From Fibrobacter sp. (GTDB lineage Bacteria; Fibrobacterota; Fibrobacteria; Fibrobacterales; Fibrobacteraceae), in contig JAISUZ010000003.1 of the NCBI GenBank assembly GCA_031271785.1, positions 1-44,387 on the forward strand: a DNA stretch of 44,387 nucleotides, in the 5' to 3' direction. Below, piece after piece: positions 5,851 through 44,387 of the stretch (the stretch's first letter is position 1; every line of letters begins with the position of its first letter). The notes beneath the pieces are model-generated. The model did not search any database. It was not told the origin of the DNA and saw nothing but the letters and a program-made list of their open reading frames with translations. The position numbers and the translations under genes were made by a program.

Positions 5851-6801
5851 ATGTACTACGAAACCATTAAAGTCTTTGACTGCACCATCCGCGACGGCGG
5901 TTTGGTAAACAAGCACCAGTTCAGTTTGGAGTTTGTACGCCGTTTGTATCAACTCTTAAATGCGGCCGGAATCGACTATATGGAAATCGGGTATAAAAAT
6001 TCTCCGGAACTTTTCGACCCGAAAGAATACGGTCCCTGGAAATTTTGCGAAGACGATTTGCTCTGGCGCGTGAAAGAAGGTTTTGACGCCAAAACCAAGC
6101 TTTCCGTAATGGCAGACGTGGGCCGCGTGAATATGGATGCGATTAAACCGCGCAGCGAAAGCCCTTACGATATGGTGCGCGTGGCGAGCTATGTGAAAAA
6201 CATCGACAAAGGCATTAGCCTTGTAAACGCTTTTTCCGAACTCGGTTACGAAACCGCCATCAACATCATGGCGATCAGCCGCGACCGGGGTCCCGAACTG
6301 GACGAAGCGCTCGAACAAATCGAAAAAGAATGTAAAGCAAACGTGGTTTATATTGTGGACAGTTTCGGTTACTTCTATCAGGAAGATATCGACGAATGTG
6401 TAAAGCGCTACCGCAGTCACATTAAAAGCCGGAGCCTCGGGTTCCACGGACACAACAACCAGCAACTCGCGTTCAGCAACACCATTCAGGCGATTATGAA
6501 CCGCGTGGATTATCTGGATTGTACCGTTTCCGGAATCGGCCGCGGCGCGGGCAACTGCACCACCGAACTTCTGCTCGGGTTCCTGAAAAATCCGAAGTAC
6601 GATATTCGCCCGGTGCTGGATGCGATATCCGAACTTTTTGTTCCGCTCTCCAAGGAGTATGAATGGGGTTACATCATTCCGCAAATGATCAGCGGCATGC
6701 TGAACCTTCACCCCGAAGATGCGATCAAAGTGCGCAAAACCGCTGAAAAAGATGATTACCGCGCCTTTTACGAAAAAATGGTAAACGCCGGTTTGGTATA
6801 A
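5851..6801 (+). CDS. HMG-CoA lyase-like / DRE-TIM aldolase family protein
   Basis: 316-residue TIM-barrel protein of the DRE-TIM metallolyase superfamily. The N-terminal signature FDCTIRDGG carries the metal-binding Asp and catalytic Arg, and GFHGHNN supplies the two metal-binding histidines; GIGRGAGNCTTELL is the conserved C-terminal loop. These residues imply an active aldol/retro-aldol enzyme, but the substrate is not clear. Relatives include 4-hydroxy-2-oxovalerate aldolase and polysaccharide-cluster aldolases. A strong AAGGAG lies seven bases before the ATG. The gene ends just before an intrinsic terminator and is followed by a membrane acyltransferase, possibly pointing to surface polysaccharide chemistry (inference). 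Confidence 0.85.
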   Translation: MYYETIKVFDCTIRDGGLVNKHQFSLEFVRRLYQLLNAAGIDYMEIGYKNSPELFDPKEYGPWKFCEDDLLWRVKEGFDAKTKLSVMADVGRVNMDAIKPRSESPYDMVRVASYVKNIDKGISLVNAFSELGYETAINIMAISRDRGPELDEALEQIEKECKANVVYIVDSFGYFYQEDIDECVKRYRSHIKSRSLGFHGHNNQQLAFSNTIQAIMNRVDYLDCTVSGIGRGAGNCTTELLLGFLKNPKYDIRPVLDAISELFVPLSKEYEWGYIIPQMISGMLNLHPEDAIKVRKTAEKDDYRAFYEKMVNAGLV

Positions 6802-8087: not shown

Positions 8088-8190
8088 AGGGGGTAGCGGA
8101 AGACGGAGCCCGCCGCCCGGCGACTGAAAGAAGCCGAATAAGGCGGCGGGGTAAAACTCCGGCTGAAGCGAGGGGGACGTGCCCCCTTCC
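8088..8190 (-). repeat. Composite repeat, A module (copy 1)
   Basis: Minus-strand copy of the A block: GGGGG/CCCCC hairpin, CTCGCTTCA, then a long stem closing on the conserved apical hairpin CGGCTTCTTTCAGTCGCCG. It is almost identical to the copy at 12732, including the CCGCCGCC/GGCGGCGG stem. Modules A and B' are adjacent on the same strand here. Confidence 0.8.
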
Positions 8191-12731: not shown

Positions 12732-12835
12732 GGAAGGGGGGCACATCCCCCTCGCTTCAGCCGGAGTTTTATCCCGCCGCCTTATTCGGCTTCTTTCAGT
12801 CGCCGGGCGGCGGGCTCCGTCTTTCGCTACCCCCT
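12732..12835 (+). repeat. Composite repeat, A module (copy 2)
   Basis: GGGGG/CCCC hairpin, CTCGCTTCA, outer stem CGGAG (12762-12766) with CTCCG (12815-12819), inner stem CCCGCCGCC (12773-12781) with GGCGGCGGG (12806-12814), and the conserved apical CGGCTTCTTTCAGTCGCCG. It ends with CGCTACCCCCT. Confidence 0.85.
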
Positions 12836-13012: not shown

Positions 13013-13059
13013 CCGGCATGAAAAACGTTCCTAATCTGCGATGATACTTATTACCTGTT

Positions 13060-13170
13060 TGCAATTTCCGAGGAACTCGGTAGCAATTTTTTATCCCTAA
13101 GCGCGGTTCTCAATGCTTTTTTCAAAACCTTTAGGCTGGAAGCCGCTCCGGTTTTGAAAAAAGTGTTGGA
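13060..13170 (+). repeat. Composite repeat, C module (copy 1)
   Basis: Starts with the small hairpin CCGAG-GAA-CTCGG, continues TAGCAATTTTTTATCCCTAA, and carries a perfect 13-base stem TTTTTTCAAAACC (13117-13129) with GGTTTTGAAAAAA (13150-13162). The stem encloses the invariant 20-base loop TTTAGGCTGGAAGCCGCTCC. Confidence 0.85.
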
Positions 13171-13184
13171 ATCGCGCGAAGATA

Positions 13185-13287
13185 CGTGAGGCAGGCGGAG
13201 GGTGCGCGCCTAAGGCGCGCAGTGCGCAGCACCGACCGGAGGGTAGCCCGGAGACACGCCGACCCGCGCTTCGCGCGGGGCACGCCC
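13185..13287 (+). repeat. Composite repeat, B module (copy 1)
   Basis: Begins CGTGAGGCAGGCGGAGGGTG, contains GCGCC-TAA-GGCGC inside a GGTGC/GCACC stem, then CCGGAGGGTAGCCCGG. It ends with the stem CCCGCGC-TTC-GCGCGGG and the tail GCACGCCC. The end is three bases from the stop codon of the convergent DUF3943 gene. Confidence 0.85.
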
Positions 13288-21824: not shown

Positions 21825-21924
21825 GGAAGGGGGAGTGTCCCCCTCGCTTCAACCCGGGTGCCCGCGTTTTCTGGCCCGGCTTCTTTCAGTCGCCGGAAAA
21901 CGCGCCCGGTTTTGCGCTACCCCT
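21825..21924 (+). repeat. Composite repeat, A module (copy 3)
   Basis: GGGGG/CCCCC hairpin, CTCGCTTCA, inner stem CGCGTTTTC (21863-21871) with GAAAACGCG (21896-21904), the conserved apical CGGCTTCTTTCAGTCGCCG, and the trailing CGCTACCCCT. The stem sequence differs wholly from copies 1 and 2 but pairs perfectly. Confidence 0.85.
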
Positions 21925-21995
21925 CAATTCGAAAAGTCTTACATAATCGGGCAATTCTATTGATGCGCAAAAAGTGTTGGAATTGCGCGAAAACA

Positions 21996-22120
21996 CGTGA
22001 GGCAGGCGGAGGGTGCGCGCCGGCGCGCAGTGCGCAGCACCGACCGGAGGGTAGCCCGGAGACACGCCGACCCGGCGCGGTTTTCATGCCGGCGATGTAT
22101 GAACGCGCCGAGGCACGCCC
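21996..22120 (+). repeat. Composite repeat, B module (copy 2)
   Basis: CGTGAGGCAGGCGGAGGGTG through GACACGCCGACC, terminal stem CGGCGCG (22073-22079) with CGCGCCG (22104-22110), and tail GGCACGCCC. The C module is absent. A short GCAATTC/GAATTGC stem (about 21952-21987) occupies its place. Confidence 0.82.
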
Positions 22121-27528: not shown

Positions 27529-27681
27529 GTGTCGTTCCGTACTTGATACGGAATCCAGAGAAATGCAAGCGGCGGCGCAGACAAAGAAAATCTTATAGTT
27601 AATGGACTTGAAAGTTGTCTCAAAATCAGAGCTCAATCCAATCCTTTCTTTTTGGACCCCGGGTGAATCCCGAGGTGACGG
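27529..27681 (+). repeat. REP-like palindromes
   Basis: Two small palindromes of the 'GTCATCCCGGACTTGATCCGGG' type: GTCGTTCCGTACTTGATACG at 27531 onward and TTTGGACCCCGGGTGAATCC at 27651 onward. The 277-base gap 27493-27769 holds no gene I can support. Confidence 0.6.
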
Positions 27682-28354: not shown

Positions 28355-28445
28355 TGGAAGGGGGCACGTCCCCCTCGCTTCAACCCCGCTGCTCGCGGTT
28401 TCTTGCCCGGCTTCACCCGTCGCCGGAAACCGCGGCGGGTTTTCC
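28355..28445 (+). repeat. Composite repeat, A module (copy 4)
   Basis: Outer stem AACCCCGC (28382-28389) with GCGGGTTT (28435-28442), inner stem CGCGGTTTC (28394-28402) with GAAACCGCG (28426-28434), and the conserved loop slightly altered to CGGCTTCACCCGTCGCCG. Both stems differ from other copies while remaining paired. Confidence 0.85.
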
Positions 28446-28514
28446 GTCTCAAAATAGGTCGAAAATATTACCGTTGTTATTGTCCTGTTCAAATCAAAAT
28501 CGTATCACCAAATC

Positions 28515-28892: not shown

Positions 28893-29100
28893 CGTGAGGC
28901 AGGCGGAGGGTGCGCGCCAAAGGCGCGCAGTGCGCAGCACCGACCGGAGGGCAGCCCGGAGACACGCCGACCCGGCGCATTATAGCGGGTATTTCTTTGG
29001 ATCCCGTATTCCTCGCGTTTTTATGCAGTTAGGACAATCGCGAGGACAGACTCCGTCCGGGATGAATTGATGATGACAGTGAATGCGCCGGGGCACGCCC
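28893..29100 (+). repeat. Composite repeat, B module (copy 3) with long terminal loop
   Basis: Conserved B core, then an 11-base perfect stem CCCGGCGCATT (28971-28981) and AATGCGCCGGG (29082-29092) separated by a 100-base loop. The tail is GCACGCCC. The loop includes a 25-base stretch (29003-29027) that recurs at 4058-4081. Confidence 0.85.
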
Positions 29101-41331: not shown

Positions 41332-43737
41332 ATGAAAAACTTACTTTGTGTACTCTTGCTCTTTTTCGCGGCCTCCGGTTTTGCCGCCGAAGAATCCGGT
41401 TTGATTGAGCGTTATTTGATTGCCGTGGGCGCCAATGACGGCGGCAACGACCGCCCGAAACTCCGCTATGCCGCTCAGGATGCCAAATCTTTTATGAGCG
41501 TACTTTCCGAAATGGGCGGCGTTTCCAAACAAAATGAAATTTTCTTGGAGGACCCTTCCGTAAAGGAAATCGATGCCGCCATGACAACCATGGAAAAACA
41601 TTTTGCCGCCGCTCCGAAAATCAAGGGACGGCGCGAAATACTCTTTTTTTACAGCGGTCATGCCGATGAACGCGGACTCTTGCTTGGAAAAGAAGTGTTC
41701 CCGTGGAAAGATCTCCGGAAACAGATTTCGAATCTTTCGGCAGATGTGAAAATTTCGGTGATCGATGCCTGCGGAAGCGGAGCGATTACGCGTTTGAAAG
41801 GCGGCGTTTCCGTGCCGGCGTTTCTGATGGACGAATCTTCGGACATGAAAGGCTATGCTTTTATTACATCGAGCACGCAGGACGAAGCGAGTCAGGAAAG
41901 CGATCGCATTAAAGGATCTTTCTTCACGCATGCTTTTGTGAGCGGCCTCCGCGGCGGCGGTGACCTTACCGGCGACGGAAAAGTAACGTTAAGCGAAGCC
42001 TATCAGTTTGCTTTTAATGAAACGCTCCACCGCACCCAGCAGACCATGGGCGGCGCACAGCATCCGAGCCGCGATATGAACCTTGCGGGTACAGGCGATG
42101 TGGTGATGACCGACGTACGCCGTACCAGCGCGACTCTCGCTCTCGACAGTGCGTTTGACGGCCGCTTTTTTATCCGGGACGAGAGCAATCTTCTCGTAGC
42201 GGAACTTTATAAAAAATCCGGGCGTGAAGTGGAAATCGGACTTCCGGCCGGTGAGTACAAAGTACAGCTTGACGTACCGAGTAAGAATTACGCCGCCGCC
42301 GTCCGAATTAAGGAAGGAAATAAAACCTATTTGAATTTCAAACAAATGAAAGAAGTGGCGGCGGAACGCACGGTATCCCGCGGCAGCGCGGTGGCGGAAC
42401 TGGATTCTTCCAAGGCGGTGAAAAAACGTTTTTCTTTCAATTTCTTTGATTTTGAAAGCGAACCGCGTAAAGGCGTGCAGCTCGGCTTTTTTGCCGCCAA
42501 AGCGCGTGAAAACATGAGCGGTGTGCAAGTGAGTCTTTTTGCAAACGTCGCTCAAAAAGAGTTTCGCGGCACTCAGGTTTCCGTAGGACTCAATTATGCC
42601 AAATATATCCGGGGCGCCCAATTTTCAATGCTCAACATTGCGGAATCAATTGACGGAGCGCAAGTGAGCCCGACAGTCAATATCGCGACCAATTCTTCTC
42701 AAGGGTTTCAACTGAGTGTGTCAAACTTTGCCGGCGATACTTTGGAAGGAGTGCAAGTCGGTGTGATGAACATAGGCGCACAAGTGAACCAAGGACAATT
42801 CGGCGTGTTCAATGCTGCGGGAAATGTGGGAACCGCTCAAGCGGGCGTTGCGAATTTCACCAAAACGGTTCCGATTCAGGCGGGTATATTTAACGCTGCC
42901 AAAGAGGTGAATTACGTTCAGGCCGGCGTGGCGAATTTCACCAAAACAACGGATACTCAGGTTGGTGTGTTTAACGCAGCCGGTAATGTCGGTGTTACGC
43001 AGGCCGGGGTCGGTAACTTCAGCGGAAAAACCGGTTATTCCCAAGCGGGCGTATTCAATGTCACCGGGAAAACAAAAGCGCAGGGCGGTGTAATAAATAT
43101 CGCCGGAACCGAAGATTTATTCCAGCTCGGTGTTATGAATATTGCCGGGAACGCCGGCGGCCGGCAAATCGGGATCATCAATATTTGCGGAACCTGCGAT
43201 AAAACTCCGGTCGGCATTATCAGCATTGTCGGAAACGGCGTGTGGGCGGCTTCGGCGATGATGGATGAGACTGCAAACCTTATCGGAAACCTGCGCCTCG
43301 GCACGGAATATTTTTACACGGTTCTTGAATACACTCGCGGATTCGAAGACAAAAAAATGTTCCGGGAATTCGGAAAAGACGTTCAGTACGGATTTGGATT
43401 CGGAACTCAATTCGGGCGCAAAGGCACTCATGTGAACATGGAATATGTGTTCCTGAATGTTTACTCCAAGCATCCGGGCGACGGCTTTTCTGTTGTGGAC
43501 ATAGGTTCGGATTCCGAAAGTAATTACCATCACCGCGTTCGCCTCGGCACCACCGTTCGGTTGTTTCCCTGGGTTGGTATCCGCGGCGGGATCTCGGCGA
43601 GCGTTGTTACCGAAGGTTATGCCGACCGGTTTAATATCGAACCGAAAGGCGAATGGCACGCCGAGTGGAATATCGCCGGCCGCGAAGTCCGCGTATGGCC
43701 GGGACTCTACGCCGGTTTGATTTTCGGAAAGTTCTAA
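41332..43737 (+). CDS. Secreted caspase-fold (C14) peptidase with LA_2272-like surface repeats
   Basis: 801 residues: signal peptide (LLLFFAASGFAA), caspase-like domain (about 25-250) with catalytic His110 in FFYSGHADE and Cys147 in VIDACGSGA, and a 12-residue EF-hand-like loop at 211-222 (DLTGDGKVTLSE). A linker with a PEGA-like beta segment follows (about 265-335). Then come about 18 tandem units of 13-16 residues (about 380-635) following x-Q-x-G-V-x-N, and a C-terminal beta-rich region of 165 residues that may insert in the outer membrane. GGAGG precedes the ATG. The repeats resemble LA_2272/LA_2273 surface proteins. Confidence 0.88.
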   Translation: MKNLLCVLLLFFAASGFAAEESGLIERYLIAVGANDGGNDRPKLRYAAQDAKSFMSVLSEMGGVSKQNEIFLEDPSVKEIDAAMTTMEKHFAAAPKIKGRREILFFYSGHADERGLLLGKEVFPWKDLRKQISNLSADVKISVIDACGSGAITRLKGGVSVPAFLMDESSDMKGYAFITSSTQDEASQESDRIKGSFFTHAFVSGLRGGGDLTGDGKVTLSEAYQFAFNETLHRTQQTMGGAQHPSRDMNLAGTGDVVMTDVRRTSATLALDSAFDGRFFIRDESNLLVAELYKKSGREVEIGLPAGEYKVQLDVPSKNYAAAVRIKEGNKTYLNFKQMKEVAAERTVSRGSAVAELDSSKAVKKRFSFNFFDFESEPRKGVQLGFFAAKARENMSGVQVSLFANVAQKEFRGTQVSVGLNYAKYIRGAQFSMLNIAESIDGAQVSPTVNIATNSSQGFQLSVSNFAGDTLEGVQVGVMNIGAQVNQGQFGVFNAAGNVGTAQAGVANFTKTVPIQAGIFNAAKEVNYVQAGVANFTKTTDTQVGVFNAAGNVGVTQAGVGNFSGKTGYSQAGVFNVTGKTKAQGGVINIAGTEDLFQLGVMNIAGNAGGRQIGIINICGTCDKTPVGIISIVGNGVWAASAMMDETANLIGNLRLGTEYFYTVLEYTRGFEDKKMFREFGKDVQYGFGFGTQFGRKGTHVNMEYVFLNVYSKHPGDGFSVVDIGSDSESNYHHRVRLGTTVRLFPWVGIRGGISASVVTEGYADRFNIEPKGEWHAEWNIAGREVRVWPGLYAGLIFGKF

Positions 43738-43870
43738 CCAAAGAATCCGTTTTTTCGGAAATAAAAATCCCGGGAAAAGGGATTCGGCCTTGCAGCCATT
43801 CCCGCAAAACATTCATCAAAAGATGGATGTTTTGTCGCATAGCGTTAAACGTCTATCCTTGAAAAATTAA

Positions 43871-43972
43871 GGAGGGGGAGTATCCCCCTCGCTTCAACCT
43901 CGCTTGATCGCGCGCCTTATTCCGGCTTCTTTCAGTCGCCGAGGCGCACGGCGAGTTTTTCGCATCCCCCCT
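43871..43972 (+). repeat. Composite repeat, A module (copy 5)
   Basis: GGGGG/CCCCC hairpin, outer CTCGC with GCGAG, inner GCGCCT with AGGCGC, and the conserved apical CGGCTTCTTTCAGTCGCCG. Stems differ from all other copies while staying paired. Confidence 0.83.
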
Positions 43973-44078: not shown

Positions 44079-44155
44079 AGTCATCCTGAACTTGTTTCAG
44101 CATGACTGTTTCAGGATCCATGTTTTTGGACCCCGGATCAAGTCCGGGGTGACGG
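44079..44155 (+). repeat. Two REP-like palindromes
   Basis: GTCATCCTGAACTTGTTTCA with a following copy ending TTTCAGGATCC, then TTTTTGGACCCCGGATCAAG with CCGGGGTGACG. They belong to a widespread class of small palindromes and lie between modules A and C. Confidence 0.7.
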
Positions 44156-44209
44156 TATGTTCTTCGTGATTTCAATATTAGCGTATCCTGATGTCCATTC
44201 CCATGATTG

Positions 44210-44318
44210 CAATTCCCGAGGAACTCGGTAGCAATTTTTTATCCCTAAGCGCGGTTCTCAATGCTTTGGGGACAAATTTTTAGGCTGGAAGCCGCTCCAA
44301 TTTGTCCCGAAGCGTTGG
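44210..44318 (+). repeat. Composite repeat, C module (copy 2)
   Basis: CCGAG-GAA-CTCGG hairpin, TAGCAATTTTTTATCCCTAA, then stem GGGACAAATT (44269-44278) with AATTTGTCCC (44299-44308) around a 20-base loop identical to that at 13130-13149. Confidence 0.85.
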
Positions 44319-44334
44319 AACCGTGCGAACATTG

Positions 44335-44387
44335 CGTGAGGCAGGCGGAGGGTGCGCGCTGGCGCGCAGTGCGCAGCACCGACCGGA
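44335..44387 (+). repeat. Composite repeat, B module (copy 4, cut by window end)
   Basis: CGTGAGGCAGGCGGAGGGTG and the GC-rich hairpin up to GCACCGACCGGA, where the window ends. It completes the A, palindrome, C, B order seen at 12732-13287. Confidence 0.8.

Follow-up and report, generated by a model that had tools for sequence, protein, structure and literature searches.

A dispersed DNA palindrome with a conserved frame and an exchangeable hairpin in a Fibrobacter genome, with related copies on plasmids and in microviruses

REP elements can be sorted into two super-families, GTAG and CGTC, and the CGTC class has no known dedicated transposase (PMC3733652). Together with the Rickettsia palindromic elements they are the nearest described kind for the chromosomal copies of the element reported here. 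Like both (PMC3733652), the element is short, dispersed and mostly extragenic, lies near gene ends and sometimes in frame within genes, and has sub-families with different stems; it also shares with the CGTC class the lack of a known transposase. Unlike them, it has a long conserved frame containing two to three hairpins and no consistent GTAG or CGTC tag, its frame is common to phyla, plasmids and microviruses, and its stem sequence is replaced wholesale. The GTAG REP/RAYT system differs further in its associated Y1 (RAYT) transposase, which is absent from the source genome.

For the plasmid and phage copies, the nearest kinds are the Frpo/ssi sites and the complementary-strand origins of microviruses. 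At the Frpo/ssi sites of conjugative plasmids, hairpin DNA precedes ssb and anti-restriction genes and lies on their strand (PMC9849209, PMC11541004), and so does the element; in contrast, the element is GC-rich, has no evident -35/-10 boxes and is also a chromosomal repeat in other phyla. Leading-region genes have the transferred strand as their template (PMC9849209, PMC11541004), and an orientation bias of these genes has been reported (PMC11541004). The Microviridae origins (G4 type, phiX174 primosome site) are, like the element, short virion-strand signals between genes or at gene ends. The G4 origin also has three adjacent hairpins, and this layout is all that is shared with G4. The G4 and phiX174 origins show no sequence similarity by model, and a kinship in sequence with the known G4, phiX174 or F-plasmid (leading region) signals was rejected, these scoring at most 8.2 bits. 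By description, the element is also like the region of several inverted repeats upstream of ardC and other establishment genes in pLS20, whose mechanism is not known (PMC8708921); unlike the element, that region is 400-600 bp long and comes from Bacillus plasmids. No description of the frame was found in the open-access literature.

The element is approximately 100 bases in length and forms a dispersed family in the source genome, a draft of 2.28 Mb. Its 16-mer core, CCCCCTCGCTTCANCC, has 63 exact matches, spread over both orientations, against 0 for the reversed control. A covariance model (A2, R1) was built from 48 full-length copies of the source genome. A search with this model, the check proposed in the preliminary description, identified 73 copies at home and the frame in related genomes. 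The count of 73 is a lower bound because several copies are found no more than a few hundred bases from the end of a contig. Repeats break assemblies, so that repeat copies end up at contig ends.

From 5’ to 3’, the element begins with a hairpin (H0) composed of GGGGG, a variable loop of 2-6 bases and CCCCC, followed by the linker TCGCTTCA. Next is a purine paired with a pyrimidine on the far side (the R-Y pair), which is A-T in 24 and G-C in 24 of the 48 copies with 0 exceptions, and which adjoins a constant C-T mismatch and a constant C-G. A 4-bp variable stem, a bulge of 3-7 nt on the 5’ side only, a 9-bp variable stem and a second 5’ bulge lead to an apical CGGC/GCCG with a small closing loop, likewise covarying. 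The 3’ end is GTYTTNCGC followed by TACCCCC, ATCCCCCC or TCCCCCC. A CTAC/GTAG motif set apart from the stem is present in 34 of the 48 copies, with GTAG beside the hairpin on the G-rich strand, and is not kept in the other 14. One copy, L022 (G000:C23:20051), has halves from different stem types, CGCGCGTCC and GAAACCGCG, and is either a recombinant or an assembly chimera.

Five members of the family lie in the window (the whole stretch of 44,387 nucleotides that was analysed), with boundaries that differ by at most 1 nt from those first reported. The five copies and the parts of copy 4, the copy under study, are as follows.

8089..8190, minus strand: copy 1; stem type CCCGCCGCC/GGCGGCGGG, outer stem GGAG/CTCC, G-C at the R-Y pair, full 3’ box CGCTACCCCC
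12733..12834, plus strand: copy 2; stem type CCCGCCGCC/GGCGGCGGG as in copy 1, 93% identity to copy 1 over 114 nt
21825..21924, plus strand: copy 3; stem CGCGTTTTC/GAAAACGCG, outer stem CGGG/CCCG, A-T at the R-Y pair
28356..28446, plus strand: copy 4
28360-28364 and 28370-28374: copy 4, H0 hairpin, GGGGG/CCCCC
28375-28382: copy 4, linker TCGCTTCA
28383: copy 4, A, the purine of the R-Y pair
28386-28389 and 28435-28438: copy 4, outer stem, CCGC/GCGG
Between outer and inner stem: copy 4, 5’ bulge, TGCT
28394-28402 and 28426-28434: copy 4, inner stem, CGCGGTTTC/GAAACCGCG
28408-28411 and 28422-28425: copy 4, apical stem, CGGC/GCCG
3’ box of copy 4: GTTTTCCG, truncated, without CCCCC
43870..43971, plus strand: copy 5; stem CGCGCGCCT/AGGCGCACG with one mismatch, outer stem TCGC/GCGA, 3’ box CGCATCCCCCC

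Copy 4 is shortened at its 3’ end and lacks the TACCCCC box present in the other window copies. The shared GGGGG/CCCCC hairpin, the apical CGGC/GCCG and the swapped but paired stems read as the preliminary description gave them. The exception is copy 5, where the stem is paired as described but contains one mismatch, the GCGCCT/AGGCGC reported earlier being its inner six pairs only.

Pairing across the 48 full copies is kept in 96.9% of 1048 paired cells, and 14 of the 22 pairs show changes on both sides. The covariation score was reached by 0 of 500 shuffles; this control ignores the relatedness of the copies, so the number of independent changes matters. Pairing falls to 36-43% if the partners are displaced by 1-3 columns. 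There are 19 distinct 9-bp inner arm pairs and 15 distinct outer arm pairs, and one inner stem is combined with an A-T outer pair in some copies and a G-C outer pair in others, and with several loops. The copies of other genomes in the phylum, which are independent, behave alike: the R-Y pair is concordant in all 51 distinct copies (28 G-C and 23 A-T, no exception), and their uninterrupted Watson-Crick runs sum to 192, whereas shuffling gives 26 on average and 45 at most. The hairpin copies are far beyond chance, and the earlier observation that the stems change yet stay paired, with the outer stem covarying, stands.

The 624 cells of the 13 variable pairs divide into 595 Watson-Crick, 2 G-T and 27 with mismatches of other kinds. 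A selected RNA stem normally goes through G-U states often. Since G-T is no commoner than other mismatches here (2 of 29 non-Watson-Crick cells) and is not favoured over them in other genomes either, pairing appears to be kept at the DNA level, and the RNA reading is unsupported. Fully paired copies number 30 of 48, and stems change whole, with few half-changed states. Selection for a DNA hairpin could maintain the pairing, as could correction of the palindrome by template switching, or the two together. The element can still be described as intergenic, covarying and kept for its structure, as first proposed, with the reservation that selection need not be the only cause of the pairing. Even on the plainer reading, the element is a clean natural case of hairpin arms that change together without G-U steps. 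The upkeep of palindrome symmetry thereby becomes directly testable, and the case warns that covariation alone is no proof of RNA.

Genomes related to the source keep only the frame, which is GGGGG-loop-CCCCCTCGCTNCRRCC-[any hairpin]-GTYTTNCGCTACCCCC. The inner hairpins in other genomes of the phylum are entirely different and range from 6 to 35 nt. A search for the 5’ frame alone gave matches in 96 of 168 genomes, and none for the reversed control; most of these 96 have 1-7 copies, several have 15-27, and one has 67. A third hairpin and tail, TCTGCGGGG-n-CCCCGCAACGCCCC, occurs in relatives and plasmids and is absent from the window’s copies. The pattern GGGGGANNNTCCCCC misses the relatives, whose loop is one base longer. 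The exact long pattern gave 0 matches in GTDB r220 and IMG/VR because the apical CGGCTTC..GTCGCCG piece of the window copies is private to the source lineage. Judged from these comparisons, the frame appears to be old and the inserted hairpin does not. In one genome (L198, G146), and likewise in G156 and G165, another palindromic repeat, CATCCCCGCGCAGGCGGGGATC, is nested within the inner hairpin of the element.

Beyond the phylum, BLAST of the frame matches a Treponema plasmid, alphaproteobacterial and acidobacterial plasmids, and seven gut Microviridae, with one further microvirus match from yak faeces. A second model (R2) was built from 13 copies of the phylum only, without window, plasmid or phage copies, and so provides a non-circular test of homology. 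With R2, the Treponema, alphaproteobacterial, acidobacterial and Microviridae copies score 22-73 bits and the window’s five copies 20-40 bits; unrelated loci totalling 618 kb reach 17.6 bits at best, a level to which the weakest true matches are close. BLAST gave no match in E. coli genomes, and a search of 56 genomes from the class of one alphaproteobacterial MAG, run without a positive control, gave no chromosomal match. The preliminary description had left room for a known Rfam or IS family; no Rfam family was reached at the gathering threshold (best 22 bits against a threshold of 34), and no IS was recognisable. A new, widespread family of DNA hairpins is well supported by these results. 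One viral contig (L204) carries, in addition to the element, a TD-2 RNA (5997-6095) that points to a Treponema host.

The plasmid copies number 1-3 per plasmid and occupy the same kind of place on one strand in several genera. On eight plasmids the element lies upstream of ssb/ArdC-type genes and is co-oriented with them, a position that corresponds to a leading region by gene content. The neighbouring genes, all co-oriented with the element, are as follows.

Plasmid 1: DUF932
Plasmid 2: SSB and ArdC
Plasmid 3: ArdC, with a RepB-type primase and SSB nearby
Plasmid 4: toprim and ParB
Plasmid 5: SSB and LPD29
Plasmid 6: ArdC-like zincin and ParB
Plasmid 7: SSB and zincin
Plasmid 8 (Magnetospira): a co-directional block including SSB

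The neighbour genes on Treponema pTS1 are opposite to the element. Genes are also opposite to it in the microviruses, so the virion strand carries its reverse complement. The entering strand of the plasmids would carry the reverse complement as well, since the transferred strand is expected to be the template of genes with which the element is co-oriented. The plasmid and microvirus strands would then be concordant as incoming single-stranded DNA and discordant as mRNA.

Most likely, the element is a repeated DNA palindrome without a transposase, akin to one that serves as a priming or promoter site in single-stranded DNA. The fuller reading, favoured here tentatively, is that of a dispersed, gene-less DNA palindrome with a fixed frame and an interchangeable hairpin that itself acts in single-stranded DNA as such a site. 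The frame, a G5/C5 hairpin followed by TCGCTNCRRCC on one side and by GTYTTNCGCTACCCCC on the other, holds the exchangeable hairpin; the frame would be recognised, and the inserted hairpin would need only to fold. The active form would be the G-rich strand (GGGGGTAGCGGAAGAC-hairpin-GGYYGNAGCGAGGGGG) as single-stranded DNA, the strand that would enter in conjugation and in microvirus infection, and the element would tell host enzymes where to begin complementary-strand synthesis or early transcription. In the source lineage it has turned into a multi-copy intergenic repeat with REP-like habits. The element probably works while DNA is single-stranded because the same frame lies beside plasmid entry genes and in small single-stranded DNA viruses, and a function of this kind is plausible from position and strand. 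Against it, chromosomal copies show no bias with replication direction, a median position of 28 nt behind stop codons would suit a 3’-end RNA role too, the pTS1 genes are opposite, and the window copies lack the third hairpin and tail. A broader proposal, which we consider somewhat unlikely, is that conjugative plasmids, single-stranded DNA microviruses and the chromosomes of at least four bacterial phyla have one single-stranded DNA signal in common, that a conserved host enzyme of replication or transcription reads it at single-strand entry, and that in some chromosomes it has multiplied to dozens of copies.

To our knowledge, single-stranded DNA promoters and priming sites are largely unmapped outside enteric bacteria. 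If the single-strand reading is true, the element would be a recognisable plasmid establishment signal outside enteric bacteria and a candidate complementary-strand origin for gut microviruses.

Copies in the source genome lie in convergent, tandem and, less often, divergent spacers. By simple long-ORF gene calls, convergent spacers are enriched (18 of 47) and divergent spacers avoided (7 of 47). Copies that follow a gene of their own strand begin a median of 28 nt past its stop codon; the distance to a divergent start is approximately 128 nt. By GC skew, the copies of the source genome divide 32:33 with respect to replication direction. On this even split a lagging-strand or replication-polarity motif was rejected there, and the chromosomal copies are not obvious lagging-strand priming sites. 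A related genome (G085) shows a 12:2 division, with n=14 copies only.

In one related genus, a THUMP/methyltransferase-like gene holds the element in frame in several species, with differing inner hairpins. The same linker contains truncated versions, other palindromic repeats or nothing in other species. The in-gene copies have been inserted or, at the least, gained and lost in place, and the pattern is that of an RPE-like element, present in frame within a gene and absent from its orthologues. Palindromic repeats at this linker (L363-L392) differ between species and are always in frame, which makes it a hot spot of in-frame palindrome insertion in this one genus.

These contexts bear on a possible but rather doubtful alternative, a purely selfish REP/RPE-like repeat moved in trans by some enzyme, in which template switching restores the arms and the plasmid and phage positions are incidental. 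The approximately 73 dispersed copies, many at contig ends, agree with it, as do the in-frame insertion and the other palindromes at the same linker, the avoidance of divergent spacers, the whole-stem changes with few half-changed states, and the lack of a link to replication direction. It is opposed by the plasmid copies, whose recurrence in the same kind of place on one strand in several genera is unlike random insertion, and by the enzymes: the source genome has no Y1 transposase, and Y1 genes among relatives do not track copy number. Mobilisation by an IS200/IS605 or RAYT enzyme was rejected on these two findings about Y1.

A structured RNA or 3’-end signal, such as a terminator or mRNA stabiliser, is improbable in comparison with the single-strand reading. 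The short distance past same-strand stop codons, the enrichment of convergent spacers and the very high stability of the stems as RNA (z -2.2 to -3.9) would suit such a role, which the preliminary description had implied. It fits poorly with the near absence of G-U pairs, with copies in all gene contexts including divergent spacers and positions upstream of genes, and with the discordant orientation, as RNA, of plasmid and microvirus copies; nor does any Rfam family apply at threshold. Runs of T are short, and a terminator scan picked up a fragment of only one of the two copies scanned. The terminator-only reading was rejected on the divergent-spacer contexts and the short T runs.

It is very improbable that the element is a recombination site formed by the folding of single-stranded DNA, in the manner of an integron attC or an IS200/IS605 end, for although the conserved ends, variable inner hairpin, conserved 5’ bulges and GTAG beside the hairpin on the G-rich strand recall such sites, the copies are dispersed tens of kilobases apart with no cassette arrays, the source genome has no Y1 enzyme, and GTAG is lost in 14 of the 48 copies.

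Other repeats and genes were observed in the window. The intergenic regions that contain the element also have another dispersed repeat, CGTGAGGCAGGCGGAGGGTGCGCGCC...GACCGGAGGGTAGCCCGGAGACACGCCGACCCG (13185-13266, 21993-22074, 28893-28974 and 44335-44387), which includes its own small variable hairpin. An intergenic 64-nt pair (13056-13119 and 44204-44267) has 97% identity and is followed by a further conserved stretch (13125-13183/44274-44332), forming composite arrays of repeat modules behind the hairpin element. Palindromes GGACCCCGG..CCGGGGTGACGG at 27649-27681 and 44123-44155 resemble CGTC-type REPs. Related ORFs are arranged in tandem on the minus strand at 1127-2388 with a spacing of approximately 420 nt, and an 801 aa ORF at 41332-43737 contains a caspase (Peptidase_C14) domain and short internal repeats at 42808-43028.
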